Positions 1-14,008 of a stretch of 15,149 nucleotides of DNA are shown here, in pieces. The stretch is from Spirochaetales bacterium (GTDB lineage: Bacteria; Spirochaetota; Spirochaetia; Sphaerochaetales; Sphaerochaetaceae). The position numbers and the translations under genes are program-made. Below the pieces are notes generated by a model that was not told the DNA's origin, did no database searches, and saw only the letters and a list, made by a program, of their open reading frames with translations. Location of the stretch: positions 1 to 15,149 of the forward strand of contig JAAYQY010000444.1 in the NCBI GenBank assembly GCA_012519125.1, given 5' to 3'. Position 1 is the first letter of the stretch, and each line of letters starts with the position of its first letter.

Positions 1-32
1 ATACTCAAGGAAGGAGAGAGAAACAAGGGAAT

Positions 33-61
33 TTGACAGGCGTACAGGATTCGGATAGAGT
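33..61 (+). promoter_or_regulatory. Sigma70-like promoter of the lysO-like gene
   Basis: A perfect -35 box TTGACA (33-38) is followed after exactly 17 bp by TAGAGT (56-61), a 4/6 match to TATAAT. The expected transcription start is about base 68, only three bases before the ATG at 71. No good Shine-Dalgarno sequence lies in front of that ATG, so the transcript may be leaderless or nearly so. Confidence 0.6.
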
Positions 62-70
62 TTTGCTCAC

Positions 71-1015
71 ATGGACACACTTTGGTATCTGGCAAAATTG
101 GCTTTGGCGCTGCTTTTAGGCGTCCTGGCTGCTCGCACGCTTGGAGTGCATCGGTTCAACAGGGTATCTGCCTATGCCCAGACGGTGCTTGTTTGGTTGC
201 TTCTGTTCTTCATGGGAGTGAATACCGGAGGAATTGATGACATCAGCTCGCAGTTCGGAACCATCGGGCTTTCAGCGCTGGTATTGACCCTTCTTGCAGT
301 GGTGGGAACCATCGTTGTCTCCCTCCTCTTCTCGTTCCTGCTCGCCCCATCAAGCAAGGAAGAAGGTATTGCCATTGCCAAGCGAAAGGAACAGAGTCTT
401 CTGCGCAGGTTCTATGACATTATCAAAGAGCCATTGCTTCTGGTAAGCATTGTCATCGTTGGTCTGGCGTTACGACTGGGTACAAATCTCTTCTTTTGGT
501 TTGACAGCTCATTGGTCACGTACCTGCTCTACACCCTCCTCTTTTTTGTAGGAATGGGTATGGTTCACAAGAAGATCAGTTTCAAGGGAGTTTTCTCAGA
601 TCGCAGTCTTTTCCTGCTGCCCCTGTACACCATTGGGGGAACCTATCTTGGTGCTCTTTTGGCACCCCTGCTCACTCCATACACGCTTTCCGAGGCGATG
701 GGGATGCTCAGTGGTTTTGGGTGGTACTCCCTTTCAGGGATTTTGATCAGCGACTTGGGTTTTCCCGTATTGGGCTCAATCTCTTTTCTCTCCAACCTGC
801 TTCGGGAGAGCTTCTCCTTTTTCCTCATCCCGCTCTTTGGCAGGCTGGGGAAACGGTTCTACTACCCCGCTGTCTGCAACGCAGGGGCGACCAGCATGGA
901 CGTTACCCTTGTGCTGCTCTCCTCACACTTCGGGACGAGGACCATGGTAGGCTCAATCTACCATGGGGTGATCATGAGTCTAGCTGCACCGCTTCTGATT
1001 CCTTTCTTCTTCTAG
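71..1015 (+). CDS. lysO: LysO-family (DUF340) amino-acid exporter
   Basis: This is an inner-membrane protein of 314 aa, close to the ~300 aa of E. coli LysO (YbjE), which exports L-lysine and toxic analogues such as thialysine. Hydrophobic segments fall at about residues 5-25, 35-52, 64-92, 121-137, 148-164, 179-200, 221-240, 246-257 and 295-314. A charged cytoplasmic stretch lies at 94-120. Family hallmarks are the SGFGWYSLSG motif (214-223), the NLLRE segment (242-246) and NAGATSMDVTL (270-280). E246 and D277 are good candidates for the membrane acidic residues that I recall being needed in E. coli LysO. In many Firmicutes this protein is split into two genes; here it is a single chain. The ATG at 71 was chosen because the first membrane segment starts at once and a promoter sits just upstream. 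The stop overlaps the stop of the convergent next gene. Substrate is inferred from family only. Confidence 0.85.
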   Translation: MDTLWYLAKLALALLLGVLAARTLGVHRFNRVSAYAQTVLVWLLLFFMGVNTGGIDDISSQFGTIGLSALVLTLLAVVGTIVVSLLFSFLLAPSSKEEGIAIAKRKEQSLLRRFYDIIKEPLLLVSIVIVGLALRLGTNLFFWFDSSLVTYLLYTLLFFVGMGMVHKKISFKGVFSDRSLFLLPLYTIGGTYLGALLAPLLTPYTLSEAMGMLSGFGWYSLSGILISDLGFPVLGSISFLSNLLRESFSFFLIPLFGRLGKRFYYPAVCNAGATSMDVTLVLLSSHFGTRTMVGSIYHGVIMSLAAPLLIPFFF

Positions 1016-1440
1016 CGGCTAATCCACATTTGTGCGACAATGGCGAGAGCGTTCTCCTTGAGCAAGCGCACATAGATTCTGTTGGGTCCGTCAAAGAGCA
1101 TCGGTATTTGGTCAAACAAAGTCCGGAGGTGCTCAGGAACAGCCAGCTGGATAAATGTATAGGTGCCGGGCTCAATCTGATGGGGATCTTGGTGAGGAGG
1201 CATTTCGAGGCCTTGTTCAACCCGGTTCCGTATCTCCTCGGTAGGAGGATCCTGAATGCCGGCAAAGAGCAGGCTCAATGTTGAGGTGAGCGCAAGACAC
1301 CCTTCGCTTCCAACCTCGGCTGAATCGAGGAAGGAGAGCAACTGTTGGTAGGCATGCTCGGCCTCAGAGGTATCGAAGGGTGCTCGTTTGTAGGAGATGG
1401 CTTGCTGGAGATGCAAGGTCATGGACTTGGCTGTTTGCAT
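1012..1440 (-). CDS. Uncharacterised small protein, 142 aa
   Basis: I do not recognise this family. The 142-aa product has no signal peptide, no membrane segment and no Cys-based metal motif. Its sequence looks like a soluble globular protein. The first half is helical-looking (about residues 5-60). A Pro-rich stretch follows near 65-90, and then a hydrophobic beta-like C-terminal part (93-142) with the segments YTFIQLAVPEHL, FDGPNRIYVRLL and ALAIVAQMWISR. It lies between a convergent lysO-like gene, with which it shares a CTAG at the two stops, and a divergent YgjP-like gene 18 bp away. No Shine-Dalgarno is seen at the ATG (1438-1440), but promoter-like hexamers place a transcription start on that codon. 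It is more plausible as a gene than overlapping frames because its composition is protein-like and it fills an otherwise empty 440-bp gap. Confidence 0.65.
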   Translation of the reverse strand: MQTAKSMTLHLQQAISYKRAPFDTSEAEHAYQQLLSFLDSAEVGSEGCLALTSTLSLLFAGIQDPPTEEIRNRVEQGLEMPPHQDPHQIEPGTYTFIQLAVPEHLRTLFDQIPMLFDGPNRIYVRLLKENALAIVAQMWISR

Positions 1441-1447
1441 GGGAGAT

Positions 1448-1476
1448 ACTGTAGCAGAATGAAAACAGACCGTAAA
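1448..1476 (-). promoter_or_regulatory. Possible promoter of the 142-aa gene
   Basis: On the minus strand TTTACG (1471-1476) and TACAGT (1448-1453) are separated by 17 bp, with 4/6 matches in each box. The predicted start is 1440-1441, at the A of the ATG. Each box alone is weak. The 17-bp spacing and the lack of a ribosome binding site make it worth noting. It lies inside the start of the divergent YgjP-like gene. Confidence 0.35.
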
Positions 1477-2157
1477 GTGGACTCCTTATCCTATGTCCTG
1501 CAAAGGCGGCGCAACAGCCGGCATATCACCATCAGGGTGCGTCCGGATGGCTTGGTGAAGGTAAGTGCTCCCTATGGGGTTTCCGTGGCTGCCATTGAAC
1601 GGGTGATCACCAACAACAAGGCCAAGTTGCTTTCCACGATTGATGCACAGCGCAGTGCGCTGCACACGTACCGAGAAGGGGAGACCTTCTTGTTTGCCGG
1701 AACAACCCTTACTCTCAAGTTGGTTTCATCAGAGAAGAATGCCATTGCTGTTACAGATACGCATCTTTTGGTTACGTATGCTGAGGCAGAGCCACAATCC
1801 TTGGTGGTCTGTACCTTGATCAAGGAACTCTTTCGTCAGCATGTCAAACAGCGGCTTGCCTACTGGGTTCCCTACTGGGCTAACCGTCTCTCACTGGATG
1901 TTCCCCCCTATGGGGTACGCGATGCAAGAAGCCGTTGGGGAAGCTGTTCCGCCAAGGGTAGATTGAGTTTTTCCTTACGCTCGCAGATTCTTGATGACGA
2001 GCAGTTCTCCTATCTGGTGCTGCATGAGATGGCCCATCTTGTGCATTTCAACCACTCAGCGCAGTTTCATGCACTGCTGGGAGAGCAGATGCCCTCCTAC
2101 AAGGAGATCCAAAAATCGGTATTTGCCTTACAAAAGGAAAGTCAGCTTTGCCTGTGA
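1459..2157 (+). CDS. YgjP/DUF45-family zinc metallopeptidase-like protein
   Basis: The 232-aa product matches the YgjP-like metallopeptidase family (M48-like zincin fold). Visible hallmarks are the N-terminal strand pair RRRNSRHITIRVRPDG (16-31), the family signature RSRWGSCSAKGRLSFSLR (157-174), and the zinc-binding LHEMAHLVHFNHS. In that motif H189 and H193 plus H199 would bind the metal and E190 would be the catalytic acid/base. No signal peptide or membrane segment is present, so it is expected to be cytosolic. Physiological substrates of this family are not established. An in-frame ATG exists at 1345, but that start would put 38 poorly conserved residues in front of the domain and overlap the divergent gene. 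The ATG at 1459, with GGGAGA 12 bases upstream, is preferred. It stands alone rather than beside restriction genes, where relatives are sometimes found. Confidence 0.85.
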   Translation: MKTDRKVDSLSYVLQRRRNSRHITIRVRPDGLVKVSAPYGVSVAAIERVITNNKAKLLSTIDAQRSALHTYREGETFLFAGTTLTLKLVSSEKNAIAVTDTHLLVTYAEAEPQSLVVCTLIKELFRQHVKQRLAYWVPYWANRLSLDVPPYGVRDARSRWGSCSAKGRLSFSLRSQILDDEQFSYLVLHEMAHLVHFNHSAQFHALLGEQMPSYKEIQKSVFALQKESQLCL

Positions 2158-2186
2158 TTCACAACGCTACTTTTATTGTGTATCTT
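2158..2186 (+). promoter_or_regulatory. Promoter of the flavodiiron protein gene
   Basis: TTCACA (2158-2163, 5/6) and TATCTT (2181-2186, 4/6) are separated by 17 bp. The -35 box begins on the base right after the stop codon of the preceding gene. The expected start is near 2193, giving a leader of about 17 nt that still contains AGAGGAGA as ribosome binding site for the ATG at 2210. Confidence 0.6.
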
Positions 2187-2209
2187 AGAGGGAGAGGAGA
2201 TAGAGCAGT

Positions 2210-3418
2210 ATGAAACCTGATACATTGGCAGACGGAGTATTTCGTGTTGCAGCAAAAATCGGCAACCGTGATCTGTTTGAAGGTATATGGCCCATCCCCG
2301 ACGGAGTGATGTTGAACTCCTATGTGGTAAAGGGAAGTGAGAAACGAGTCCTGATCGACTTGGTAAAGGATTGGGATGGCGCGTTGGCTGCGGTCAATAA
2401 GCAACTCGATGATCTGGCGGTGGGACCGGGAAACCTGGATTACATCGTGATCAACCACATGGAACCCGACCATACCGGTGCGATGGCACGCATTGTTGCC
2501 GCCTACCCGGAAGTTGAGATCCTCTGCTCGGCAAAAGCAGTCCCCCTGATCAAACACTTCTACAAGATTGAAAAGAATGTACGCGCGGTGGCCGACGGTG
2601 AGAAGCTCGACTTGGGTGGAAAGACCTTGCAGTTTTTCATGACACCGAACATCCACTGGCCCGAAACCATGATGACCTACCTCGAAGAGGACCAGATCCT
2701 CTTCAGCTGTGACGCCTTCGGTTCCTTTGGCCGCTATGAGAGCTGCTTCGATGATGAGTTGACCGAGGAAGAGAAGACGAAGCTTTTCAGCGAGACTGAG
2801 CGCTACTATGCGAACATCGTCTCCTCCTTCTCCTCGTTTGTCACGCGCGGCATAGCAAAGCTTGCTCTGCTTGGCATCAGGATGGTTGCACCAAGCCATG
2901 GCGTGGTCTGGAGGAAAGAGCCCGAGAAGATCATCAACTGGTATGGGACCCTTGCAACGTATATGAACGGTCCGCGGGAGAAGGAAGTCGCGGTGGTATG
3001 GTCGAGCATGTATGGCAATACCGAAGCCCTTCTCTCCTCGATTGTCAAAGGCTTGGAGAGCGAAGGAGTTCCCGTACACGTACTGCAGGTTCCCCAGACC
3101 CATGAATCCTTCGTGTTGGAGAAAGTCTGGCGCAGTGAAGGCTTGGTGATCGGGATGCCTACCTATGAGTACAAGATGTTCCCCCCGATGTACCATGTCC
3201 TGGACATCCTTGAGAGAAGCCATGTGCAGGGAAGAAAGACCCTGCGCTTCGGTTCTTTCGGCTGGTCAGGAGGGGCACAGAAGCAGTTTGATGAGTTCTC
3301 CACCGCCATGAAACTCGACTGCAAGGGTGTGATCGAATACCAAGGATCACCGACAGAAGAAGACAAGAAGAAAGCCTATGAGCTTGCCAAGGCTATGGCC
3401 AAGGAAATCAAGGGCTGA
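2210..3418 (+). CDS. fprA: Flavodiiron protein (A-type flavoprotein, FprA/ROO family)
   Basis: This 402-aa cytosolic enzyme reduces O2 to water and/or NO to N2O, protecting anaerobes from oxidative or nitrosative stress. Electrons normally come from rubredoxin or a related donor. Residues ~1-250 form the metallo-beta-lactamase domain, and all six di-iron ligands are present: H83, E85 and D87 in NHMEPDHTG, H149, D168 in SCDAFGSFG, and H230 in APSHGVVW. Residues ~258-402 form a flavodoxin domain that binds FMN through SSMYGNTE (265-272), with further FMN-loop segments at MPTYEYKMFPP (316-326) and FGSFGWSGGA (347-356). There is no C-terminal rubredoxin or NADH-oxidoreductase extension, so it is the simple class A form. 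No rubredoxin gene is adjacent. It has its own promoter and terminator and is probably monocistronic. Whether O2 or NO is preferred cannot be read from sequence. Confidence 0.95.
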   Translation: MKPDTLADGVFRVAAKIGNRDLFEGIWPIPDGVMLNSYVVKGSEKRVLIDLVKDWDGALAAVNKQLDDLAVGPGNLDYIVINHMEPDHTGAMARIVAAYPEVEILCSAKAVPLIKHFYKIEKNVRAVADGEKLDLGGKTLQFFMTPNIHWPETMMTYLEEDQILFSCDAFGSFGRYESCFDDELTEEEKTKLFSETERYYANIVSSFSSFVTRGIAKLALLGIRMVAPSHGVVWRKEPEKIINWYGTLATYMNGPREKEVAVVWSSMYGNTEALLSSIVKGLESEGVPVHVLQVPQTHESFVLEKVWRSEGLVIGMPTYEYKMFPPMYHVLDILERSHVQGRKTLRFGSFGWSGGAQKQFDEFSTAMKLDCKGVIEYQGSPTEEDKKKAYELAKAMAKEIKG

Positions 3419-3428
3419 CAAACACAAG

Positions 3429-3470
3429 GCTGTTGATCGGAGGCTCCGGTCAGCAGCTATTTTTTGTTTT
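3429..3470 (+). terminator. Intrinsic terminator after the flavodiiron gene
   Basis: GCTGTTGATCGG (3429-3440) pairs with CCGGTCAGCAGC (3446-3457) over 12 bp, including two G-U pairs, around a 5-nt AGGCT loop. It is followed by the T-rich tract TATTTTTTGTTTT (3458-3470). It begins 10 bases after the stop codon and is a textbook Rho-independent terminator. Confidence 0.9.
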
Positions 3471-3487
3471 CCTCCTAGTCATTTTTC

Positions 3488-3516
3488 TTGAATTGTCCAA
3501 TTACGTCCGCTATTCT
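3488..3516 (+). promoter_or_regulatory. Promoter of the papain-like lipoprotein gene
   Basis: TTGAAT (3488-3493) and TATTCT (3511-3516) are separated by 17 bp, with 4/6 matches in each. The predicted start is near 3523. It follows the terminator directly and lies a sensible distance before the ATG at 3546. Confidence 0.5.
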
Positions 3517-3545
3517 GTGAACATCCTGTGCACCCCAGGGGTCTC

Positions 3546-6086
3546 ATGCAAAACAGTCGGACGTCCAAACTCATCCTCACCTTTCTCTGTGCAATGCTTT
3601 TCATTGCCTGTGATCTGCTGTATACCCCGCCTGGAGTGCTGCAAAGTTCCCGACAAGCGGGAACCTACCTTGAGCCAATCGCGATCACCCTTTCAAGCAA
3701 CCATTCCAAGGCAATCCATTACACGACCGACGGGTCTCTTCCTACGTTGGACAGTCCTCGCTACACAACTCCCATCACCCTCACCAAGACAACACAGGTG
3801 CAAGCCATTGCAATCGACAGCAGTGATAGGGTTGTGCAACGAAAAAGCTGGAACTACATCGTGCGGGGAACTCCCCACTTTTCTCCAAACCTGTCAGTGG
3901 TCGACGATCGGCTCTATCATGTCTCTGACCAGTATGAGTACAGCACAGACGATGGGAACACCTGGCAAGCTTGCACAGGACTTTCCCAATCCCTCCCTGA
4001 GCTCTCTGTAGGCAATAAGGTTCATGTCCGTCATAAGGTGGTGCAGGACGACAGATACTACCTTGGGGAAGTATTGCAGGCAACTGGGCCTGATTTGGTG
4101 GCTGGCAACTGCTATGTTGCGCATGCACGCCTAGGTGAAAATGAAATTGATGATTTCAGCGGGCTGATTTTTGATGCCAACTTCTCAGATGGAAACGCAA
4201 CCATCGCCATTCCCACCATAACCAATGCCGGCAATGCTACTTTCACCGGTTCGGCCATCATCGACTTTTATGCATCCTCAGACCCTTTCATCACCGAAGA
4301 GGACCAACTCTTCCTTTCGGTAGAGACCATTGATTTCACGCTGGAGCCCAACCAAACCTACGGAGCCTCCCAAGATGGCTCTTGGCCGACCGATGTGATT
4401 TGGCTTTGGGGTCTTATCAAGACAGTGGATGGGGTTCCTCAGTTAACGTATAAAGTCAGCACTTTGGAAGGGTTTCAGTATATAGGGTACCATCTCAGAA
4501 CAGAGAAGTCAGAGTTGCTCACCCAGAACAACTGGACAGCATCACAGTATGTCGATTCGGTTTTCTTCACGGAAAGCGATGCAGACACGACGGATGGTGC
4601 CTTCAAGATTGTTAATTCATGGGGAGAGGGCAACTGGGAACATATCCCTGATGGGGCCTACTACCTTCCCTTTGATGCTGCCGTTGCCTTGAAACTACGC
4701 ATCAACTACTCTTTCAATACCTTTGAAACAGTATACGAGCCATTCCTATTTGCCTCATTTACCCTATCCCATCCAAACCGTGAGACCTGTCTGATCAGCA
4801 TTGGGGTGGGAGAGCCGGAGCATCCTCTCATGGTAAAACGGCTTCAGTCAATTTCAGATATTGCGAATGATGACCCTGTCCTGGCTGGAGGTCCCAATCC
4901 CTTTCCAAATACGAAGATGGTCATGGATATCAGCGAATTCGCGCCCTATATCGCCACCAACGACATCTTCATAAGAATTGACAACAGACTAGGAGCGGAG
5001 ACAGCAATGCTCTCTTTCTTCTCAGTGGAGCTGTACGACGACTATTCGCTTGATCCTGCAGATGCAGCACAAATCCTTGATTTTCCTCTAGAAGGCTCTT
5101 CTGCTACAGTGGCAGCAAGAGAGAACAGAACTTTCCTGATCAGCACAAGCAGGGATTTGGAGCAAGACAGTCTTCCCCTGCTTCGCACGCAGAGCCGAAG
5201 CCGAAGCAGTAGTCAGTCGCTTCCAGCCCAGCGACCTCTTACAGAAGAGGAGATCCAGGATATCCTTGCCTTACAGGCTCCTGCAAGCAGAAGCAGAAGC
5301 CAGAGCAACCCAAGCTCTGGGGGGTTGGTCCCTCCTACAGAATCTGAGCTGAGGAGCATGAGAACCATAGATGTGGGTGCCCGTTTTTATCCAGGTACTC
5401 TTCCCTCAGAAGTTGACTGGAGCCAAAGCCCCTACTTCCCCCCGATCGGCAACCAGGGGCAGAAGGGAAGCTGTGCGGCCTTCACGAACGCCTACTACAT
5501 CCACACCTTCAATGAGGCTCGTGAGCATGGATGGGATCTCAGCGGTGCACAGTGGATAGAAAGCACCACCGGTTCTGGCTATCCCTCAGTTGCGTATCAG
5601 GATAAGATCATGAGCCCGGATTTCAGTTACCACCTGGTGTCTCAAGCACCAGGGGCCTCGATAGCTGCTCTTCAATCCGTGCTGAACCGCATTGGATCGA
5701 GTACCTGGAAAACCACAGGATATGATGAGGTCGATGACACTCTCCCGTATACCTATCCCTGGCCAACCGAAGAAGCCTTTCGGGAAGCGGCGCTGTACCG
5801 GGGCAGAAGAAGTGATGGGAGTTACTTTGAGGAGAATTCTGGGGGTCTTATTGTACTCGATGACCCGGCGAAGATAGATATCATACAACAGCTGCTTGCC
5901 AGTGGGTACTGTCTGGCTACCGGCATCAACGCCCAAAGCTTTTTTTATAATGATCCCGGGGAGCAGTGGATGAACGAAGAGGACGTAGTGGATCTTACTG
6001 GGGTGTCCGAAGACGATATCAACTATTTCAGGCAAAACATAAACCATGCTCAGACCATAGTCGGCTACAAGACAGGATTACTGTAA
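3546..6086 (+). CDS. Large lipoprotein with CHB_HEX_C-like and permuted papain-like (C1) modules
   Basis: An 846-aa predicted lipoprotein. Residues 1-22 form a signal peptide with lipobox LFIAC (C22, followed by Asp). Residues ~30-105 resemble the chitobiase/hexosaminidase C-terminal domain (YLEPIAITLS, IHYTTDGSLPT). Residues ~125-178 look like a second Ig-like unit (YEYSTDDGNTW), and ~182-320 resemble a CARDB-type adhesion domain. Residues ~345-385 match the Asn-bearing end of papain proteases (GAFKIVNSWG, N357; then IPDGAYYLPF), followed by a beta-rich region to ~535. A Ser/Arg-rich linker (548-606) leads to the Cys/His part: DWSQSPYFPPIGNQGQKGSC with oxyanion Q637 and nucleophile C643, then NHAQTIVGY with H834. 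The protein stops 12 residues after H834, so the usual C-H-N order is permuted to N-C-H. It would be a surface or periplasmic protease or, if the pieces cannot assemble, an adhesin-like relic. The ATG at 3546 is preferred over GTG 3528 because AGGGG lies 4 nt before it and the signal peptide then starts normally. The 3' end overlaps the convergent gene by 9 bases. Confidence 0.85.
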   Translation: MQNSRTSKLILTFLCAMLFIACDLLYTPPGVLQSSRQAGTYLEPIAITLSSNHSKAIHYTTDGSLPTLDSPRYTTPITLTKTTQVQAIAIDSSDRVVQRKSWNYIVRGTPHFSPNLSVVDDRLYHVSDQYEYSTDDGNTWQACTGLSQSLPELSVGNKVHVRHKVVQDDRYYLGEVLQATGPDLVAGNCYVAHARLGENEIDDFSGLIFDANFSDGNATIAIPTITNAGNATFTGSAIIDFYASSDPFITEEDQLFLSVETIDFTLEPNQTYGASQDGSWPTDVIWLWGLIKTVDGVPQLTYKVSTLEGFQYIGYHLRTEKSELLTQNNWTASQYVDSVFFTESDADTTDGAFKIVNSWGEGNWEHIPDGAYYLPFDAAVALKLRINYSFNTFETVYEPFLFASFTLSHPNRETCLISIGVGEPEHPLMVKRLQSISDIANDDPVLAGGPNPFPNTKMVMDISEFAPYIATNDIFIRIDNRLGAETAMLSFFSVELYDDYSLDPADAAQILDFPLEGSSATVAARENRTFLISTSRDLEQDSLPLLRTQSRSRSSSQSLPAQRPLTEEEIQDILALQAPASRSRSQSNPSSGGLVPPTESELRSMRTIDVGARFYPGTLPSEVDWSQSPYFPPIGNQGQKGSCAAFTNAYYIHTFNEAREHGWDLSGAQWIESTTGSGYPSVAYQDKIMSPDFSYHLVSQAPGASIAALQSVLNRIGSSTWKTTGYDEVDDTLPYTYPWPTEEAFREAALYRGRRSDGSYFEENSGGLIVLDDPAKIDIIQQLLASGYCLATGINAQSFFYNDPGEQWMNEEDVVDLTGVSEDDINYFRQNINHAQTIVGYKTGLL
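5193..5363 (+). repeat. Duplicated Ser/Arg linker module within the lipoprotein
   Basis: Two diverged copies of a ~27-residue unit sit in tandem. Residues 550-576 start SRSRSSSQS and end PLTEEEIQDILAL. Residues 581-606 start SRSRSQSNPSS and end PPTESELRSMR. At DNA level the SRSRS parts are AGC/AGA/CGA hexamer-like runs (5193-5215 and 5286-5302). The module separates the Asn-bearing half from the Cys/His half of the papain-like region. Confidence 0.6.
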
Positions 6087-6797
6087 GGAAGCCTCTCTGA
6101 CAAAGGCCTCAAAGAGAGAATCCATAGCCTCTCCTAGGGTTTCCGGGTGCCATTGTACTCCGACGCACCAAGAGCCATCGATAGCCTCAAACGCCTCAAT
6201 GGAACCATCAGATGCATTAGCTGTGACTTTTAAGGCATCAGAAGGGGTGTCCACCAGCTGGTGATGCAGACTGTTTACTCCTAGTTCTGGTTTCTTGAGA
6301 ATGGAAAAAAGTATGCTGTCTTGCTTGATTTTCACCAGATGGCTTGCGTTGTTCCAGTGCTCCAGATCGGGGTGATGAATACTCCACCCCTCCCGCTTCT
6401 TATAGTCCTGATACAGCGTTCCTCCCTCTGCCACATTGATCAGCTGCATGCCACGGCAAATACCCAGTATGGGCTTTCCCGCTTGTCGCCCTTGGTGATA
6501 GAGCGCAAGGTGAAATGTATCGGTATCGAGGTCGGAAGGTCCACAGAGAGGGGTTCTCTCTTGCTGGTAGCAAGAAGGGTCGATATCTGCACCGCCTGCA
6601 AAGAGCACGCCGTCACAGAGCTGGATCAGCTGTTCGATATTCGTTGTTGTGGGGGACAGCAGAATGACCAGAGCTCCTACCGCTTGGAGACAGGAGCTGT
6701 AGCCTTCGTTGGTGAAGATCCTTCGGAGGGTGGGGAAGGCTGAGCTAGCCGGAGCCTGTTCATAGGTTCCGGCTATGCCGATCACCGGCCTTCTCAT
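6078..6797 (-). CDS. Class I glutamine amidotransferase-like hydrolase (peptidase C26, PuuD-like)
   Basis: The 239-aa product belongs to the gamma-glutamyl-gamma-aminobutyrate hydrolase/C26 family, cytosolic enzymes that hydrolyse gamma-glutamyl amide bonds. The catalytic triad is complete: C114 in LGICRGMQLINV, and H217 and E219 in GVQWHPE. The family motif GGADIDPSCY (68-77) and the N-terminal PVIGIAGTYE are also present. Length is normal. Its ATG overlaps the pepD stop as ATGA (6794-6797) and there is no separate Shine-Dalgarno, so translation is probably coupled to pepD. PuuD of E. coli acts in putrescine degradation, but no other puu genes are here, so that specific role is not supported. 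Its position behind a dipeptidase points to cleavage of gamma-glutamyl peptides, which is inference. Confidence 0.9.
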   Translation of the reverse strand: MRRPVIGIAGTYEQAPASSAFPTLRRIFTNEGYSSCLQAVGALVILLSPTTTNIEQLIQLCDGVLFAGGADIDPSCYQQERTPLCGPSDLDTDTFHLALYHQGRQAGKPILGICRGMQLINVAEGGTLYQDYKKREGWSIHHPDLEHWNNASHLVKIKQDSILFSILKKPELGVNSLHHQLVDTPSDALKVTANASDGSIEAFEAIDGSWCVGVQWHPETLGEAMDSLFEAFVREASLQ

Positions 6798-8239
6798 TCG
6801 ATGATGGAAAGCAGGTGGCGGGTAAATCCGCTGATACGCTCCACCGAAGAGATACAGAGCCGTTCCTTCACCGAGTGCACATCATACATATCAGGGCCGA
6901 AGGAAACAGAGTCCATTCCGCTGATCCTGCTATTGATGATACCGCACTCAAGACCAGCATGGATGGCGGTGATCTTCGGCTTCTTGTTGGTGTACTGCTC
7001 GTATGCTTTGGCACAGAAGCCGGTCAGAGCCGATGCAGGGTTAGGTGTCCAAGAGGGATAGGCTCCCGTATAGGATACCTTGGCTCCTGCAAGGGCAAGG
7101 ATGGCTCCATTGCGATGGGCAATGTCATCACGGGCGGAGAGCACCGATGAGCGATGACTGCTGATGACAGAGAAGCCCTGTTCCTCAAGACGGAGAATGG
7201 CAAGGTTGGAGGAGGTCTCCACAATGCCGGGAATAGTCATACTCATGGCATCGACACCATGGGGAGCAGCATAGAGGGCAGTGAAGAAAGCCTTGCTCTG
7301 CTCTTTGGCAACCGCTTTCCCTACCATGGGAACCTCGGTGAGAGTCAGCAGAAGGTTGGGATCACTGTGTGCATACTCAAGGCTCAACTCCTTCTGATTT
7401 TGTGCAACCAGGGAGGCAAGCAGTGTTGCATCTTTCTCCTCTACAACCAAGCCGATGGTACAGACAGAAGGAATGACATTGCGCTTGGTTCCTCCCTCAG
7501 CCTTGAAGATCTGGAAGGAAGGAAGCTGACTGACGGTGCGGGCCGCCACCTTGATCGCATTCGCACGTTGTTTGTGGATCTCTCCACCACTGTGGCCGCC
7601 AAGCATTCCGTTTGCAGTAAGCAGGAATGCCTTCGATGAAGAATCTGGCTTGGTCCAGGTGACAGGAAGCTGGGCATCCACTTCGATTCCCCCTGCACAG
7701 CCGATATAGAGCACCCCTTCCTCCTCGCTGTCGAGGTTGATCATGAGCCTGCTCTGTACATGCTCTTCCTGAATATTGAAAGCCCCGGTGAGGCCTGTCT
7801 CCTCACTGACGGTGAAGATTGCCTCAAGCGGGCCGTGCTTGCAATCAGGATCGGCAAGGATATCCAGAGCAAGGGCGATGGCGATGCCGTTGTCTCCTCC
7901 CAATGTGGTTCCATTGGCCTTCAAAAAGTCCCCATCCCGTACCAATTCGATGGGATCGGTGGCAAAATCATGTGTGCTTCCTTCGACCTTGACGCACACC
8001 ATGTCCATATGGCCTTGCAGGGCAACAGAGCTACGGCCCTCGTAGCCGGGATAGGCTTTCTTTCGGATGATGACATTACCGATATCGTCTACAATCGCCT
8101 TAAGCGCATGCTCTTTGGCAAACGCGAGCAGGAATTGTCGTACCCCTTCTTCATTGCCCGACTCGCGGGGGATATCAGAAAGGTCAGAGAAGTAGTTCCA
8201 AAGTCTTTCAGGTTTCAGGCCTTGTACAGCTTTTTGCAT
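6794..8239 (-). CDS. pepD: Aminoacyl-histidine dipeptidase / cytosol nonspecific dipeptidase (M20C)
   Basis: A 481-aa cytosolic di-zinc peptidase that cleaves a broad range of dipeptides. Metal ligands and catalytic residues of the M20 family are all visible: H77 and D79 in LQGHMDM, bridging D116 in LGGDNGIA, general base E146 and ligand E147 in VSEETGLTG, D170 in INLDSEEEG, and H455 in DVHSVKERL. Substrate-site motifs GGHSGGEI (215-222) and IHAGLECGII (426-435) are also present. The spacing matches that of Vibrio PepD. A longer reading starts at 8272, but ATG 8237-8239 has a perfect AAGGAG (8247-8252) 7 bases upstream and avoids overlap with nagA, so I chose it. It lies 25 bp after nagA and is followed with ATGA overlap by the C26 hydrolase, which indicates one operon. 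Confidence 0.95.
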   Translation of the reverse strand: MQKAVQGLKPERLWNYFSDLSDIPRESGNEEGVRQFLLAFAKEHALKAIVDDIGNVIIRKKAYPGYEGRSSVALQGHMDMVCVKVEGSTHDFATDPIELVRDGDFLKANGTTLGGDNGIAIALALDILADPDCKHGPLEAIFTVSEETGLTGAFNIQEEHVQSRLMINLDSEEEGVLYIGCAGGIEVDAQLPVTWTKPDSSSKAFLLTANGMLGGHSGGEIHKQRANAIKVAARTVSQLPSFQIFKAEGGTKRNVIPSVCTIGLVVEEKDATLLASLVAQNQKELSLEYAHSDPNLLLTLTEVPMVGKAVAKEQSKAFFTALYAAPHGVDAMSMTIPGIVETSSNLAILRLEEQGFSVISSHRSSVLSARDDIAHRNGAILALAGAKVSYTGAYPSWTPNPASALTGFCAKAYEQYTNKKPKITAIHAGLECGIINSRISGMDSVSFGPDMYDVHSVKERLCISSVERISGFTRHLLSIIE

Positions 8240-8246
8240 CCAATTG

Positions 8247-8252
8247 CTCCTT
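8247..8252 (-). promoter_or_regulatory. Shine-Dalgarno deciding the pepD start
   Basis: AAGGAG on the minus strand lies 7 bases before the ATG at 8237-8239. It argues against the upstream in-frame start at 8272, which would overlap the end of nagA. Confidence 0.8.
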
Positions 8253-8264
8253 GTGTGATGGTTT

Positions 8265-9449
8265 TCAGGCAAAACGGTCCCTGATGAGATTTCCCTCGAT
8301 GAATAGACCCTTCATCTGAAGGTTCTCGTCCAGAACGACGACATCAGCCTTATAGCCTGGGACCAGCATGCCTTGCTTGGCGAAGTTGTAAATACGGGCA
8401 GGGTTTGTAGCGCTCATCTGGCTTGCTTGCTGGATGGGTACCTCCCAATCCACGACATTGCGCAGTCCCTGCAACATGGTCAGTGCAGAACCAATGAAAA
8501 GATCAGGATCTTCTAAAGCAACGAAGGCGCCGTCCACGCCTATGGCACACTCGATGCCATTTGCAAGGCAGGATCCTGAACGCTGTTTTGTAGGCTTGAG
8601 CGAGTCGGTGACCATGACGATGTTGTCCAGCGGTTTCTCCCTGAGCAACATCTTCACCAGCTCAGGGTGGACATGTATTCCGTCACAGATGATTTCGCAC
8701 TGCATCTCACGCTGTATCAGGATTGCCCCGACTGTTCCAGGGTTTCGGTGGTGCAACCTGCTCATGGCATTGAAAAAGTGGGTGGAGTGGAAGATACCGC
8801 ACTGCATGCCTTCCATGATGTTCTCATACGTGGCATCGGTATGGCCGGCCAAGAGAACGATGTTCCGTTCTCTTGCAAGGAGGGCCAATTCACGCATGTG
8901 CTTGAGTTCTGGGGCTACCGTCATACAAATGACATGCCCCTTTCCTGCATCTATGAGCTGGTTGAAAACATCCAGGTTCACCGGCAGTACTCCTGCTGGA
9001 TTCTGTGCTCCCACCCGCTCCATGGAGATGAAGGGACCTTCAAGATTGACACCCATGATCTTTGCGCCTTGCTCGCTGCCCATGGCCTCCACAATGGCCT
9101 TGATGCTTGCAAGCATGTTATCCAAGGTATCGGTGTAGACGGTAGGCATGAATGCACTGACTCCGAAGTCTGCGAGCCGTTCGCTCATTCCCAGAATTGA
9201 AGATGCTTTGCAATCCTCGGTGCCGAAACCACCAATTCCATGGATGTGGGAATCGATGAATCCGGGCATGATGTAGGACCCCCCTACATCAATCATGACC
9301 GTGTCGGGGGGAAAATCTTTCTCTTCCAGCCTACGCATGTTGAAGATATCCCCGATTTCGCCTTTCTCATCTATATAAAGGGCGCAATTCTTAAGCTTTG
9401 CATACCCTGTAACGACAGTTCCATTGGTAAGTACTGTTCTCAGACTCAT
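8265..9449 (-). CDS. nagA: N-acetylglucosamine-6-phosphate deacetylase
   Basis: The 394-aa amidohydrolase converts GlcNAc-6-phosphate to glucosamine-6-phosphate and acetate, the first committed step in using GlcNAc from the medium or from cell-wall recycling. Visible features are the TIM-barrel metal motif DSHIHG (H68, H70), the metal-binding glutamate in NLEGPF (E137), H203 in AGHTDAT, H224 in HSTHFFNAM, and the catalytic aspartate D282 in VTDSLKP. The intact HxH motif is the two-metal type seen in Bacillus NagA. E. coli NagA lacks these two His and uses one metal. The ATG at 9449 has AGAGAGG 6 bases upstream. No nagB, nagE or NagC-like regulator is in view. It is read with pepD and the C26 hydrolase, from a promoter of its own inside the end of the MATE gene. 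Confidence 0.95.
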   Translation of the reverse strand: MSLRTVLTNGTVVTGYAKLKNCALYIDEKGEIGDIFNMRRLEEKDFPPDTVMIDVGGSYIMPGFIDSHIHGIGGFGTEDCKASSILGMSERLADFGVSAFMPTVYTDTLDNMLASIKAIVEAMGSEQGAKIMGVNLEGPFISMERVGAQNPAGVLPVNLDVFNQLIDAGKGHVICMTVAPELKHMRELALLARERNIVLLAGHTDATYENIMEGMQCGIFHSTHFFNAMSRLHHRNPGTVGAILIQREMQCEIICDGIHVHPELVKMLLREKPLDNIVMVTDSLKPTKQRSGSCLANGIECAIGVDGAFVALEDPDLFIGSALTMLQGLRNVVDWEVPIQQASQMSATNPARIYNFAKQGMLVPGYKADVVVLDENLQMKGLFIEGNLIRDRFA

Positions 9450-9470
9450 ACGGTACCTCTCTTTGGATAA

Positions 9471-9499
9471 ACTATACGTTCATATTTACAGGAGGTCAA
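9471..9499 (-). promoter_or_regulatory. Internal promoter for nagA-pepD-C26
   Basis: On the minus strand TTGACC (9494-9499, 5/6) and TATAGT (9471-9476, 5/6) are separated by 17 bp. The -35 box contains the TGA stop codon of the MATE gene. The predicted start at about 9464 leaves a 14-15 nt leader containing AGAGAGG. This is the strongest promoter match on the minus strand. Confidence 0.65.
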
Positions 9500-10857
9500 T
9501 GAACGATAGTCAGGTCATTCACCCAGGTTCCTCTCTTGATGCGATGAAGTCCGATGAACATCTTGGAGACCTCATCCATCCCCAGAAGCAAGAAGAGCTG
9601 GTGGATTTCCAGCTGGAACACCAGAGCCCCAAGGAACGCCAGCGGGACACCGACAGCCCAGACACCGAACATCTCGGCAAACATGGAGTAGCGCGTGTCA
9701 CCACCGCTACGCAGGATGCCGACAATGATCACAATGTTGATGCTCTTGAACGGCATGGTCAGGGCATGGACATAGAGGCAGAGGATTGCCAATCTCCTCA
9801 CTTCATCGCTGATATTGAAGAACTGTGCAAAAATCGGGGCAATGAGGACTTCGAAGAGACCCATGGCAATACCGACCAGCAAGGCGGTGATGATGAATCG
9901 CTTTGCATAGAGTCGAGCGAGAGGAATCTGCTTTTCTCCTATCTTGACTCCGATCATGATCAGGGTGGCGTTGCTCACCCCCATCATGGCGACGAAGAAG
10001 AGGTTGCCGATCGACTCGGCCACATTGATGGCAGCGATTGCTTCGATACCGATTCTGCTGTAGGCAACCTTGTACGCGATCATGCCCAAGGCCCAGAAGA
10101 ACTCGTTGAGGATGACAGGAAGACTGGTCGGTACGATATGCAGGAGGAAGGCCTTATTCCAGTGGAAGGCCTCTTTTGTCCGGATGGCCAGGACTGGGTG
10201 GCGGCGGTAGACGATGATAAGAAGTGCAACCACCTCCACCAGACGGCTGGCAGCAGTTGCATAAGCGGCCCCGGCCACCCCCATTGCAGGGATGGGTCCG
10301 ATGCCGAAGATCAACAGGTAGTTTCCCACTGCATTCATGGAAAGGGAGAAAAGTGCAACCAGCAAGGGAATCCTTGCGTGGCCCACAACGCGCAGTGCTG
10401 TTGCGAGTACCTGGCTGATGGCTGAGAAGATGTAGCTTATTGCCACTATTTTCAAGTAGGAAATGCCATGTGCGACTACGACTTCCTCAGTCGTGAAGAT
10501 GTACATGATCTGACGGGGAATGAAGAATGAAGCGAGGGCAAAAATTAATGCACCGATTCCGGCTACTGCAACAGAGAGCCCGAGCACCCGTTGGATGTTC
10601 GTCTCGTTCTTGGCTCCCCAATATTGGGAGAGGAAGATGGCCGAGCCGCTGGTTACCCCAAAGAAGAGGAGGCTGATGAGGAAGAACATCTGGTTTGCCA
10701 GTGCAACAGCTGCAATGGAGGCTTCCCCCAGCTGACCTATCATCAGGGTGTCAACAAAGGAGAGCGAGTTATTGAGTAGGCTTTGGAAGATGACCGGCAA
10801 GGCGATGGAAATCATCTTGCTGGTGAAATCTTTCCGTTCAGTAAGGTCTTTGGTCAC
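9496..10857 (-). CDS. MATE-family multidrug/toxin efflux transporter
   Basis: A 453-aa inner-membrane protein of the expected MATE length (about 450 aa, 12 membrane helices in two homologous halves). The N-terminal half carries the usual opening ALPVIFQSLLNNSLSFVDTL (19-38) and GQLGEASIAAVALANQ (41-56). The second half has the matching segments IAYKVAYSRIGIEAIAAINV and GEKQIPLARLYAKR. MATE proteins expel cationic or organic compounds using Na+ or H+ gradients; the substrate cannot be told here. A longer reading from 10923 would overlap ygiQ by 62 bases. GTG 10855-10857 is preferred: AGAAGG lies 7 bases upstream, within the last codons of ygiQ, and only 4 bases separate it from the ygiQ stop. 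It is thus the second gene of the ygiQ operon. A nagA promoter overlaps its stop codon. Confidence 0.92.
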   Translation of the reverse strand: MTKDLTERKDFTSKMISIALPVIFQSLLNNSLSFVDTLMIGQLGEASIAAVALANQMFFLISLLFFGVTSGSAIFLSQYWGAKNETNIQRVLGLSVAVAGIGALIFALASFFIPRQIMYIFTTEEVVVAHGISYLKIVAISYIFSAISQVLATALRVVGHARIPLLVALFSLSMNAVGNYLLIFGIGPIPAMGVAGAAYATAASRLVEVVALLIIVYRRHPVLAIRTKEAFHWNKAFLLHIVPTSLPVILNEFFWALGMIAYKVAYSRIGIEAIAAINVAESIGNLFFVAMMGVSNATLIMIGVKIGEKQIPLARLYAKRFIITALLVGIAMGLFEVLIAPIFAQFFNISDEVRRLAILCLYVHALTMPFKSINIVIIVGILRSGGDTRYSMFAEMFGVWAVGVPLAFLGALVFQLEIHQLFLLLGMDEVSKMFIGLHRIKRGTWVNDLTIVH

Positions 10858-10861
10858 GGGT

Positions 10862-12718
10862 TTACCTTCTGGCAAGCAACACTCTCGCCAAGTCCTTTCT
10901 CTTTGCTTTTTCCAAGGCCTCAAGAACTAAGGGGCGGTTTTCAGGTTTCTGATACTGCAGCAGGGCCCGCTGCAAGTGTCGCTCGCGTCCCTTGGGGACA
11001 TGGATGGTGGCAAACCGCTTTCCCATCCGTGGATCGAGCCCAGTATAGTACATGCAGGTAGAGACTGTCCCGGGTGTTGGATAAAATTCCTGCACCTGAT
11101 CAGGGATAAATCGGCTCTTATGCAAGTACAAGGCCAATTCGATGGCATCCTCAAGGGTGCTGCCAGGATGTGCTGCGATGAAGTAGGGAATGAGGTACTG
11201 CTTTTTCCCAGCCTCTTCGGTTGCTTCCTGGTAGAGTTCGGAAAAAGCATCAAACAGTTCAGCCTTGGGTTTTCCCATGGCATCGAGAACCGCTGGGCTT
11301 ACATGCTCAGGGGCAACCTTGAGCTGTCCGCTGACGTTATGACGTACCAGATGTCGCATGAAGCGGGAACGGGTCTGCTCGTCACAGACCTCAAGCAGGT
11401 AGTCGTAACGGATACCACTGCGAATGAATACCTTCTTTACCCCTTTGATGGCTTCCAGACTCTCCAAAAGGTCCAGATAGCGAGCATGATAGTCTTTCAG
11501 GTTGTCACAAGGAGTTGGCCAGAGGCACTCCTTGGCAGGGCAGGGGCCATAGGTGAGCTGACGGTCGCAGGCCAGACCTTGGAAGTTGGCGGTAGGGCCT
11601 CCCAAGTCGTGGATATATCCTTTGAAGAGAGGATGCGAGACCATTCGCTTTGCTTCCTTGAGCAATGAGTCCTTGCTGCGTGTCTGGATCATCCTTCCTT
11701 GGTGGCTGGTGATTGCACAGAAGGAGCAGGAGCCAAAGCAGCCTCGGTTGCTGGTAAGGGAGAACTGCACTTCTGTCAGCGCAGGAACACCACCCTCTTT
11801 TTCATAGTCGGGGTGTGCATCCAGGGTGAAAGGCAGGGCAAAGAGCGCGTCGAACTGAGCCTCGTCCAATGGTAGCGCAGGCCTGTTCTGTACAACCATA
11901 CGGTCCATGCACGCTTGGACGATGCGCTTGCCCCGTATCGGGTTTTCTTGTGCCAACTGCAGCTGGAAGGCAAGGGCATAGGCCCTTTTCCCTTCCTCAG
12001 TGGGGGTGTTTGACTTGGCATCACGTGCACTGACTTCCTCAAAGGAGGGTATCTGAAGTGTATCAGGAAGCTGCTCATAGGATTTCTTATTGAGCACATG
12101 GACAGTGCCGGGGATATCGGTCAGTCCCTTGATGGTTTGTCCTGCATCGAGGCGTTTGACTATCTCCACCGTCTGTCGTTCTCCCATGCCATAGACCAAA
12201 AGATCGGCCTTGGCATCGAGGATGATGGGCTTTCGAACCTTGTCGGACCAGTAGTCATAATGACTGAGTCTTCGCAGCGATGCTTCCAACCCCCCTATGA
12301 TGATAGGAATATCACTGCCGTAGGCTTGCTTGGCCAAGGCAGTATGGACCAGTGTCGGTCGGTCGGGGCGAAGGCCTGCTTTGCCCCCTGGACTGTACTC
12401 ATCCTCGCTTCGGATCTTCTGGTTGGCAGTATAGTGGGATACCATGCTATCGATATTCCCTCCGCTGATCATACAGCAGAGTCTGGGTTTTCCCATTTTG
12501 AGAAAATCTTTGGTTGAGTTCCAAGAAGGTTGTGCGATAATACCCACACGATAACCCTCCCGCTCGAGCAGTCTGGCCAGTAGGGCTGTTCCGAAAGAGG
12601 GATGGTCAACGTAGGCATCTGCGCTGATGAAGGCGATGTCGATTTGGTCCCAGGACCGATTGTGCAAATCTTCTTGTGTTGTAGGAAGAAATGCAGAGCG
12701 AGGGGCGTAGGTTTTCAC
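10862..12718 (-). CDS. ygiQ: YgiQ-family radical SAM protein
   Basis: A 618-aa member of the YgiQ/UPF0313 radical SAM family, whose reaction is not established. The N-terminal domain has the family stretch FLPTTQEDL followed by SADAYVDHPSFG and GGLEASLRRLSHYDYW. The radical SAM core carries RGCFGSCSFCAI with cluster cysteines C327, C331 and C334 in a CxxxCxxC arrangement, as usual for radical SAM enzymes. The C-terminal part (VPKGRERHLQRALLQY) corresponds to the DUF3362-type tail. Length is near normal. An upstream TTG (12782-12784) would add 22 residues, but it has no Shine-Dalgarno and lies 2 bp from the divergent lipid-kinase start. The GTG at 12716-12718 gives an N-terminus MKTYAPRSAFLPTT like relatives and coincides with the predicted transcription start, so I prefer it. 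It leads a tight operon with the MATE gene. Confidence 0.9.
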   Translation of the reverse strand: MKTYAPRSAFLPTTQEDLHNRSWDQIDIAFISADAYVDHPSFGTALLARLLEREGYRVGIIAQPSWNSTKDFLKMGKPRLCCMISGGNIDSMVSHYTANQKIRSEDEYSPGGKAGLRPDRPTLVHTALAKQAYGSDIPIIIGGLEASLRRLSHYDYWSDKVRKPIILDAKADLLVYGMGERQTVEIVKRLDAGQTIKGLTDIPGTVHVLNKKSYEQLPDTLQIPSFEEVSARDAKSNTPTEEGKRAYALAFQLQLAQENPIRGKRIVQACMDRMVVQNRPALPLDEAQFDALFALPFTLDAHPDYEKEGGVPALTEVQFSLTSNRGCFGSCSFCAITSHQGRMIQTRSKDSLLKEAKRMVSHPLFKGYIHDLGGPTANFQGLACDRQLTYGPCPAKECLWPTPCDNLKDYHARYLDLLESLEAIKGVKKVFIRSGIRYDYLLEVCDEQTRSRFMRHLVRHNVSGQLKVAPEHVSPAVLDAMGKPKAELFDAFSELYQEATEEAGKKQYLIPYFIAAHPGSTLEDAIELALYLHKSRFIPDQVQEFYPTPGTVSTCMYYTGLDPRMGKRFATIHVPKGRERHLQRALLQYQKPENRPLVLEALEKAKRKDLARVLLARR

Positions 12719-12724
12719 ATCGCA

Positions 12725-12753
12725 ATGATAGGGGATTGCCTCTTGGGTGTAAA
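12725..12753 (-). promoter_or_regulatory. Promoter of the ygiQ operon
   Basis: On the minus strand TTTACA (12748-12753, 5/6) and TATCAT (12725-12730, 5/6) are separated by 17 bp. Counting 7 bases beyond the -10 box gives base 12718, the G of the proposed GTG start codon. This supports the shorter ygiQ reading and suggests a leaderless mRNA. Confidence 0.6.
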
Positions 12754-12772
12754 TAGCCTTCGTCGGAGCATC

Positions 12773-12779
12773 AAAGGAG
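12773..12779 (+). promoter_or_regulatory. Shine-Dalgarno of the lipid kinase gene
   Basis: AAAGGAG lies 7 bases before the ATG at 12787. It falls in the 68-bp gap to the divergent ygiQ start. I could not find a convincing promoter for this direction in the gap. Confidence 0.75.
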
Positions 12780-12786
12780 TGCAACC

Positions 12787-13716
12787 ATGCAGCAAAATGA
12801 GCTCTTTGTCATCCTCAATCCCCATGCGGACAAAGGACGGGCGAAGAAGCAGGAGAGGATGATACAGACGTTGCTCTCCTCGGGTGGGGCGAAGGTCACT
12901 CTTTCCCATACCAAAGTGGGGGAAGGGGCACAATCGATTGCCTATGAAGCGGCATTGGCGGGGAGGAATCCCATTATAGCAGCCGGGGGCGATGGGACGG
13001 TGAACGAGGTTGCCAACGGCATCCTGAAAGCAGTCACCAAGGATGGTGTTCCCTGTCCGGTCATGGGGGTTATTCCCATCGGAAGGGGAAATGATTTTGC
13101 TTGGGGTATGGGCATTCCAAAGGATTTGGCGAAGGCTTGCTCCACCATCCTTGCAGGGAGAACCAGAGTCATCGATGCAGGGGTCACCTATGGGGGAAAC
13201 TATCCAGAGGGGAGGTTCTTTGTAAATGGGCAAGGAGTAGGATTTGAACCCTTGGTCAACTTTCTTGCCAGTGATTTCAAGCATGTGACCGGAACCCTTA
13301 GTTACGTGCTGGCTCTCATCAGGATCCTGATCAACTATCCTGATCCCTACACCGTCCAGCTCACGCTTGATGATGAGGTCATCAATCTGAAAACCCAACA
13401 GCTGAGCATTTGCAATGGAAGGCGAATGGGGTCTGCGTTCCTCATGGGGCCGGATGCACTCTTCGATGATGGGTATTTCGATGTTGTATATGCCAATACA
13501 CCTGTGGCCAGCTACAAGTTGGTTCCCATCGCTCTTACGTTTTTCAAGGGGACGCAAGTAAAGCTGAAGCAGTTCAGTGTCAAACGGGTGAAGTATGTGA
13601 AGATGATCAGCAGCGATAATCTGATGCCGATTCATGTGGACGGAGAGGAGATTTCTTTGGGTTGTATGGAGTTTACCGCACGATTGCTGGAGTCTGTGTT
13701 ACCGGTATTTTGCTGA
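12787..13716 (+). CDS. Diacylglycerol/lipid kinase family protein (YegS/BmrU type)
   Basis: A 309-aa ATP-dependent lipid kinase with the DAGK catalytic domain, likely membrane-associated and acting on diacylglycerol or a similar lipid. Visible features are the opening NPHADKGRAK (11-20), the nucleotide-binding AAGGDGTVNEVANGI (65-79), IPIGRGNDFAWGMGIP (96-111), and ICNGRRMGSAFLMGP (208-222) followed by DDGYFDVV (227-234). The C-terminal MPIHVDGEEI (280-289) closes the fold. Length fits the family (about 295-310). The phosphorylated lipid is not predictable; relatives act on diacylglycerol (DgkB), phosphatidylglycerol (YegS) or others. It is divergent from ygiQ and followed by an AT-rich gap. 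No terminator is evident after the stop. Confidence 0.9.
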   Translation: MQQNELFVILNPHADKGRAKKQERMIQTLLSSGGAKVTLSHTKVGEGAQSIAYEAALAGRNPIIAAGGDGTVNEVANGILKAVTKDGVPCPVMGVIPIGRGNDFAWGMGIPKDLAKACSTILAGRTRVIDAGVTYGGNYPEGRFFVNGQGVGFEPLVNFLASDFKHVTGTLSYVLALIRILINYPDPYTVQLTLDDEVINLKTQQLSICNGRRMGSAFLMGPDALFDDGYFDVVYANTPVASYKLVPIALTFFKGTQVKLKQFSVKRVKYVKMISSDNLMPIHVDGEEISLGCMEFTARLLESVLPVFC

Positions 13717-13918
13717 AAAAACACGATTTTTGCGAAACCATGTCCAGAGGGAATGCTGTAGTGATGAAAGATAAGGAGATATGCTGATTTGTAAAAAAAA
13801 AAGACTTTCCGAATCGGGGATAATTAGCTATTATATAAATGATTATTGGGAAACATCAAAAAGAAAGGTCTCAGTTTTAGAATATTTCTGTTGTTTCTGT
13901 ATCTTGTTGTATATGCGA

Positions 13919-13947
13919 TTGACTTCTCTGAAAAGAGAGTATATCTT
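13919..13947 (+). promoter_or_regulatory. Promoter of the glycosidase-like gene, with inverted repeat in the spacer
   Basis: TTGACT (13919-13924, 5/6) and TATCTT (13942-13947, 4/6) are separated by 17 bp. The predicted start is about 13954, giving a leader of about 55 nt. The spacer contains a perfect short inverted repeat TCTCT-GAAA-AGAGA (13925-13938), which could be an operator or a chance palindrome. Confidence 0.55.
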
Positions 13948-14000: not shown

Positions 14001-14008
14001 TTCCCAAT

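Follow-up and report, generated by a model that had tools for sequence, protein, structure and literature searches.

We identified a gene for a putative circularly permuted protease in a draft genome of a Spirochaetales bacterium (GCA_012519125.1), on a stretch of 15,149 nucleotides that is called the window here (contig JAAYQY010000444.1, positions 1 to 15,149). Judging from its sequence, the product of 846 amino acids (aa) has arisen by natural circular permutation of a secreted protease of the papain family (C1), and we put the probability of this reading at roughly 0.85. In C1, the family on which the papain clan was founded, the catalytic residues follow the textbook order Cys-His-Asn. 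The chain of the window protein runs instead from Asn (N357) through a putatively beta-rich domain (the beta domain) and a linker to Gln/Cys (Q637/C643) and His (H834), and its stop is reached 12 residues past H834. An earlier note, made from the letters of the window, had described this Asn-Cys-His order within one protein, and we confirmed it: GAFKIVNSWG (residues 351-360, 4596-4625), IPDGAYYLPF (residues 367-376, 4644-4673), GNQGQKGSC (residues 635-643, 5448-5474) and NHAQTIVGY (residues 833-841, 6042-6068) each occur once in the open reading frame (ORF), as does NSW. The residue numbers of that note are consistent with the ATG at 3546; an alternative GTG start at 3528, six codons (18 bases) 5' of this ATG, was picked by the ORF tool.

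Evidence for circular permutation

The halves of the window protein match both halves of single canonical proteins, that is, proteins in the order Cys-His-Asn, in swapped order and at 27-47% identity. The domain that follows the Asn segment in the window protein is the one that follows it in these ordinary relatives, as the earlier note had supposed. The breakpoint is shared as well. Permuted chains stop 0-12 aa past the Cys/His match in all 76 ORFs compared and 0-10 aa past it in 91 proteins, whereas canonical chains continue into the Asn segment 3-13 aa past the same match (81 ORFs). Since a Peptidase_C26 gene (6078-6797, minus strand) is convergent with the protease ORF and overlaps its last bases, a lost Asn segment does not lie directly downstream.

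The linker between the halves is 71-116 aa long in the permuted proteins (median 88), and the stretch before the Cys half in the canonical proteins measures 16-215 aa (median 113). A hidden Markov model (HMM) of this pro-region, which was built from 79 canonical pro-regions and has the motif GTGLxPPTxEEW, matched 62 of 76 permuted linkers taken alone at E<1e-3 and none of 76 shuffled linkers at E<10. When full-length ORFs were searched, it matched 44 of the 76 permuted ones, always in the linker and never elsewhere. The linker of the window protein has remnants of the pro-region motifs (TEEEIQDIL at 5241-5267 and GGLVPPTE at 5319-5342). The earlier note had considered that a Ser/Arg linker might let the pieces fold together; the linker composition varies among nine aligned relatives, the pro-region recurs there instead, and this special role was dropped. 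Swapped homologous halves, a shared breakpoint and a pro-region at the join therefore point to circular permutation, the explanation that the note had put first.

The accessory domains have changed sides: the median lengths before and after the module are 357 and 9 aa in permuted proteins, against 113 and 492 aa in canonical ones. A lipobox-like motif was found within the first 45 aa of 49 of the 91 permuted proteins versus 4 of the 125 canonical ones, a difference confounded by taxon and by truncated N-termini. The window protein itself is a putative lipoprotein.

Several observations weigh against the permutant reading. The window protein remains under the cut-off of the C1 family PF00112 (15.5 versus 20.7 bits) and matches it in the Cys part only. 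The pro-region is worn in the window's clade, where P0001 was matched as a linker alone and missed in the full-length search, and 14 of the 76 linkers are unmatched even alone, including those of the close relatives P0002, P0003 and L033. The gene is patchy: a full-length match was not obtained in 18 of the 26 genomes searched within the genus, of which many are drafts. Finally, to our knowledge, activity is not known for any member of the family.

Relationship to the C1 family

All parts of the C1 motif set (oxyanion Gln, catalytic Cys, His and Asn) were found in the permuted family. Every one of the 76 permuted ORFs has the Gln, Cys and Asn, and 74 have the His, both exceptions being truncated. 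In a wider set of 283 rows, from which P0017, P0038, P0193, P0194, P0217, eight proteins with a split beta domain and short partial matches were excluded, all four residues are kept in 119/119 permuted and 164/164 canonical rows. In a 44-row alignment (A2), seven columns of the Asn-beta half are invariant, and five of these (Gly, Asn, Ser, Gly, Asp) lie within the Asn segment. When the catalytic motifs were sought with a loose text pattern, 6 of 91 permuted proteins were missed. Among these proteins, P0015 has GCC for GSC and P0216 has NSWS for NSWG, with the catalytic residue intact in both; P0038 is cut at its C-terminal end, and P0193, P0194 and P0217 are without the start of the Asn half and are perhaps fragments. 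In L115:1129-2916 (596 aa), a permuted member of the window's family that is more distant, the nucleophile motif reads GAC instead of GSC.

Profile comparisons link both forms to known C1 structures. With the canonical profile, the His and Asn segments align with the C1 proteases 3ois (E 3.3e-9) and Lpg2622 (6a0n, E 6.5e-8). With the permuted profile, cathepsin K is matched in the Cys region (whole-chain E 2.2e-6) and very weakly in the His region (i-Evalue 4.3). This profile also matches 3ois at E 2.8e-5, where the best stretch is the Asn segment, which is below threshold when taken alone. PF00112 matches 16 of the 44 members of alignment A2 at E<=0.1 (best 5.2e-06), and an NCBIfam scan of the window protein gave no C1 match. 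Because the C1 parts are present but in the order Asn-Cys-His, not Cys-His-Asn, we file the family as a permuted relative of C1, apparently built from C1 parts, and not as an ordinary C1 member.

A search of the window's genome with PF00112 found no other C1 gene and missed the gene's own protein as well, and such a search is therefore blind to proteins of the permuted kind. The Cys/His half gave only its self-match in this genome, which is 82% complete. For the beta domain, PF18560, which we take to be a lectin-like Pfam family, was absent among the first 25 families listed for alignments A2 and A3.

Relatives in both orders and their distribution

A protein search with residues 330-852 (852-aa numbering) returned 78 proteins; by BLAST with the two halves, the Asn-beta half comes first in 43 of them and the Cys/His half in 33, with 2 undecided. 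Together with two further searches, one of which contributed 120 of 674 matches, this gave 220 proteins, and half-HMMs assigned 91 of them as permuted, 125 as canonical (8 with a split beta domain) and 4 as unassignable. Homologues in the usual order, which the earlier note had proposed to look for, thus exist beside the permuted ones, and the permuted ones share their breakpoint. With 91 of the 220 proteins in the rotated order, the arrangement is beyond chance.

We also scanned one genome per species, and the best 80 of 112 loci comprise 32 permuted loci, which have 33 permuted ORFs between them, and 48 canonical loci; in the pools of 76 and 81 ORFs given above, one gene may count both as a protein and as a locus. 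According to the names in the database records, on which all taxon assignments of relatives rest, the 32 permuted loci belong to Spirochaetota (14), Riflebacteria (7), Thermotogota (6), Cloacimonadota (1) and Halanaerobiales (4), mostly as metagenome-assembled genomes. Among the 32 loci are those of Halanaerobium kushneri ATCC 700103 and H. saccharolyticum WC1, and the permuted protein P0105 is named Kosmotoga pacifica and encoded on a contig of 2.17 Mb. The 48 canonical loci are archaeal in 32 cases and otherwise bacterial (Bacteroidetes, Neomarinimicrobiota, Planctomycetota, Caldithrix and others, with one in Cloacimonadota). In a sample of the window's phylum, 119 of 392 genomes had a match at E<=0.001, many to accessory domains only. 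Thirty loci from this sample included four permuted ones (L112-L115, among them the window's own and a known relative), and the other 26 have a more distant Cys/His half, with the ordinary order wherever the His and Asn motifs could be placed.

Several relatives have unusual architectures. In eight canonical proteins (P0070, P0139, P0150, P0156, P0163, P0165, P0167 and P0182), the beta domain is split by about 170-190 aa, and its second part is a weak match (10-16 bits); a precomputed PF20773 (MAM) domain is present in all eight and is presumably the insert. P0196 of Thermotogota (2033 aa) combines the permuted module with PF00656, which we assume to be caspase-type, and is named for a pre-peptidase C-terminal domain. 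P0161 has a canonical C1 module and an S8 serine peptidase (PF00082) in one chain. A Spirochaetales contig has a pair of minimal permuted genes in head-to-tail arrangement (L049:3032-4714 and 4794-6503).

Recurrence, synteny and selection

Among 60 genomes searched, the window's own included, 7 others from the genus have full-length relatives (49-93% identity), and one relative in another family of the class (L009) is full-length too, with 38% identity over residues 313-850. The frames are open and without stops in all of these. Nine aligned proteins all have the order Asn, Gln/Cys, His with a stop soon after the His, and N363, Q643, C649 and H840 (852-aa numbering) are invariant among them. 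In G002, the profile match at C1:2949176-2951716 (L114) counts one internal TAA, yet the frame is open over 857 aa; the TAA probably reflects the tail of the profile running past the stop.

An ODP-family gene, which we take to be FprA-like, and a C26 gene flank the protease in 7 of 15 permuted loci compared (L002-L005 and L032-L034), of which L002/L032 and L003/L033 are apparently the same genes fetched twice. These flanking genes were not found at the eight more distant loci (L009, L035, L036, L040, L049, L052, L061 and L071). The whole protease gene is under purifying selection, with ratios of nonsynonymous to synonymous substitution rates (dN/dS, NG86 method) of 0.21, 0.16, 0.20, 0.17, 0.35 and 0.36 in six pairs; the comparison of the window with L005 is saturated. 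The Cys/His part alone gave higher values (0.58 and 0.52) in two pairs among L005, L006 and L008, which are of low divergence.

These results bear on two explanations that the earlier note had left standing. The first is a misassembled repeat or chimeric contig, which could be suspected in a draft of 457 contigs that is 82% complete; however, the identical order is present in the single-contig genomes G001, G002 and G019 (G017 consists of two contigs) and in isolates such as H. kushneri ATCC 700103 and K. pacifica, and conservation in many genomes, the shared loci and purifying selection rule it out. The second is a one-off relic of recombination between tandem paralogues, in which a broken protease would be retained for binding alone. 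The accessory domains at the N-terminal end could indeed act without the protease, 6 of the 76 permuted ORFs have Y, F or H for the Trp of NSWG, and the Cys/His part has the raised dN/dS values in two pairs. Nevertheless, the catalytic residues are invariant over several phyla, the gene as a whole is under purifying selection, and the order is conserved in 91 proteins and many genomes, with synteny at the seven loci; a relic is thus very unlikely.

Origin of the permuted order

For phylogenetic trees, the two halves were aligned separately and then set in canonical order. A 129-row tree was made after dropping P0017 and P0038 (truncated) and then rows more than 85% alike; for a 41-row tree, the long branches L059, P0078, P0075 and P0074 were dropped and the rest thinned at 52% identity; and a careful 80-row tree was made without L059, P0078 and P0075. 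The outgroup and a deep archaeal branch are both canonical in order, and because of this the permuted form is probably derived from the canonical one.

A single origin of the permutation is favoured by the more densely sampled rooted trees. In a quick 83-row rooted tree, the permuted rows form a single clade inside the canonical ones, with a Shimodaira-Hasegawa-like approximate likelihood ratio (SH-aLRT) support of 97, and the careful 80-row rooted tree also gives a single permuted clade, found in 64% of 200 bootstrap trees. The case is contested by other results. The supporting branch in the 80-row tree is weak (70/56), the quick 129-row and careful 41-row trees require two changes of order, with a single permuted clade in 1% of bootstrap trees for the 41 rows, and a 50-row tree with eight distant canonical C1 rows as outgroup likewise requires two changes and has a single clade in 5% of bootstraps. 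These trees would fit at least two independent permutations at the same loop, one in Spirochaetota/Riflebacteria and one in Thermotogota/Halanaerobiales. However, a single permuted clade was not rejected by the approximately unbiased (AU) test (p-AU 0.157 for 41 rows and 0.406 for 50 rows), and with the two denser rooted trees we regard multiple origins as rather improbable.

Proposed packing of the halves, maturation and anchoring

Covariation between the halves was compared in 119 permuted and 164 canonical rows. The pairs most strongly coupled in canonical proteins exceed an entropy-matched null in the permuted proteins too, with p-values of 0.0002, 0.0162, 0.0032, 0.0072 and 0.0020 for the top 10, 20, 40, 80 and 160 pairs; a re-pairing control shifts the whole background and was not relied on. 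This gives modest support to the view that the halves may still be packed together. The depth of the test is low (effective numbers of about 56 and 82), clade structure may contribute to the signal, and the test is blind to whether one chain or two are involved.

A similar layout is known from Cwp84 of Clostridioides difficile (PDB 4d59), a C1A protease that shares the arrangement of propeptide, C1 domain and beta-sandwich; its propeptide is reported to wrap round a lectin-like domain before entering the active-site groove (PMC4089489). A canonical member has a weak sequence match with 4d59 over the His-Asn region (E 0.0034). Cwp84 differs in its ordinary order, and its Asn287 is reported to lie outside the active site (PMC4089489).

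We propose that the ancestor had the order signal, pro-region, Cys, His, Asn and beta domain. The simplest route from there would be duplication in tandem and then deletion of the outer parts. This would have fused the beta domain, the C-terminal end of the ancestor, to the pro-region at its N-terminal end, and created new ends in the loop that connects the His and Asn strands. If the family shares a Cwp84-like build, as its layout suggests, the old ends would have been near each other and cheap to join. No duplicated intermediates were found in six-frame ORFs of at least 80 aa from L001-L111 (E 1e-5) or among the 220 proteins, where the only proteins with two beta-half matches are the eight canonical ones with a split beta domain. 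The present chain consists of a putative signal and lipobox, accessory domains, Asn segment, beta domain, pro-region, Cys and His parts and the end, and the Asn strand would dock beside the His strand of the same chain to rebuild the papain fold.

Alternatively, the Asn-beta half of one molecule might complete the Cys/His half of another, in a strand-swapped dimer or chain. The couplings between the halves fit closure in cis and in trans alike, and a linker of 71-116 aa is long enough for either route. Still, closure within one chain would be sterically natural if the protein is built like Cwp84 (PMC4089489), with the old pro-region in the linker, and the minimal permutants P0036 and P0037 keep the whole module within 543-564 aa. 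We consider complementation in trans unlikely, and closure within one chain is the arrangement followed here.

The enzyme would cleave protein outside the cell. Its domain order suggests a surface-anchored extracellular protease whose anchor stays with the Asn-beta part, whether the pro-region is cut or not; if the chain were cut behind the pro-region, the enzyme would consist of two chains, and the Asn-beta chain would still be tied to the N-terminal anchor. We suggest only tentatively, as a possibility that is on balance doubtful, that the permutation changed both maturation and anchoring and produced a membrane-tethered, cleavage-activated split papain. In canonical relatives, removal of the N-terminal pro-region would detach the enzyme from whatever anchor that end may have. 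Removal of the internal pro-region from the permutant would instead leave an Asn-beta chain with the lipid anchor and binding domains plus a Cys-His chain, which would then be held by the rebuilt papain fold. No membrane-tethered, cleavage-activated split papain was found among the papers listed in searches on permutation, Cwp84 and Sphaerochaeta/papain.

Comparison with known permutations

The nearest relatives for comparison are the canonical C1 proteins with a beta domain from archaea and several bacterial phyla (for example P0049, P0050 and P0066), which have the same Cys/His half, Asn segment, beta domain and pro-region motif. They differ in having the order Cys-His-Asn-beta and accessory domains on the C-terminal side of the module. 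P0050 is annotated as a C1 family peptidase.

Natural permutations are already known within the papain-like superfamily. The NlpC/P60 relatives (LRAT, YaeF/YiiX) and PPPDE proteins are described as such in two reports (PMC3142127, PMC10318531), which suggest that the Cys helix has moved C-terminal and that His precedes Cys. The window family is unlike these, with Cys643 still before His834 and the Asn/beta part moved to the front. LupA is another known case, and the same 2023 classification of papain-like proteases states that cathepsins and their cluster keep canonical structures (PMC10318531). Among OTU deubiquitinases, EschOTU and A20-type enzymes also have a permuted or shifted catalytic residue; EschOTU has the order His-Asn-Cys, A20-type enzymes have an acidic residue upstream of Cys, and the OTU family and fold details differ from those of the window family (PMC7396840).

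A term search of the main text of a 2023 study of papain-family origins found no word starting with "permut", and a 2025 preprint on finding permutations has papain only in a reference. No permuted C1 protease is described by the papers listed in searches on permutation, Cwp84 and Sphaerochaeta/papain, judged by titles and the starts of abstracts and with subscription papers mostly uncovered. A permuted C1 protease thus appears to be new, while permutation in the papain-like superfamily is not.

A natural permutant opened between the catalytic His and Asn, in five bacterial groups, would indicate that evolution can cut the active-site hairpin itself. It also has a practical side, since a profile built on the usual order under-scores permuted proteins; several of them take their names from accessory domains (chitobiase-type, InlB repeat), although P0036 is named a C1 family peptidase. 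A concrete possible advantage is that accessory and anchoring parts now lie on the N-terminal side instead of the C-terminal one.

Features of the protease gene and its neighbours

Table 1. Parts of the putative permuted protease gene, in positions of the window
Feature	Position	Strand	Basis
Putative permuted C1-type protease ORF, 846 aa	3546..6086	+	ATG start; full-length relatives
Putative signal sequence with lipobox-like FIAC, Cys22	3546..3611	+	Read from sequence
CHB_HEX_C_1 / Fn3_assoc domain	3654..3824	+	Pfam PF13290 E 5.2e-17, PF13287 E 3e-13
Asn segment GAFKIVNSWG...DGAYYLPFDA, N357 at 4614-4616	4596..4679	+	Canonical counterpart aligned to PDB 3ois NSWG
Putatively beta-rich domain after Asn, homologous to post-Asn domain of canonical relatives	4680..5180 (end approximate)	+	
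Linker with worn remnant of the canonical pro-region; putative join of old C-terminal and old N-terminal ends	5181..5387 (limits approximate)	+	
Cys/His half: Q637 5454-5456, C643 5472-5474, H834 6045-6047	5388..6068	+	
New C-terminal end, putatively opened in the loop between His strand and Asn strand	6069..6086	+	

On the 3' side of the protease (6081-9449), genes for the C26 peptidase, an M20 peptidase and an amidohydrolase follow, all on the minus strand and syntenic in near relatives.

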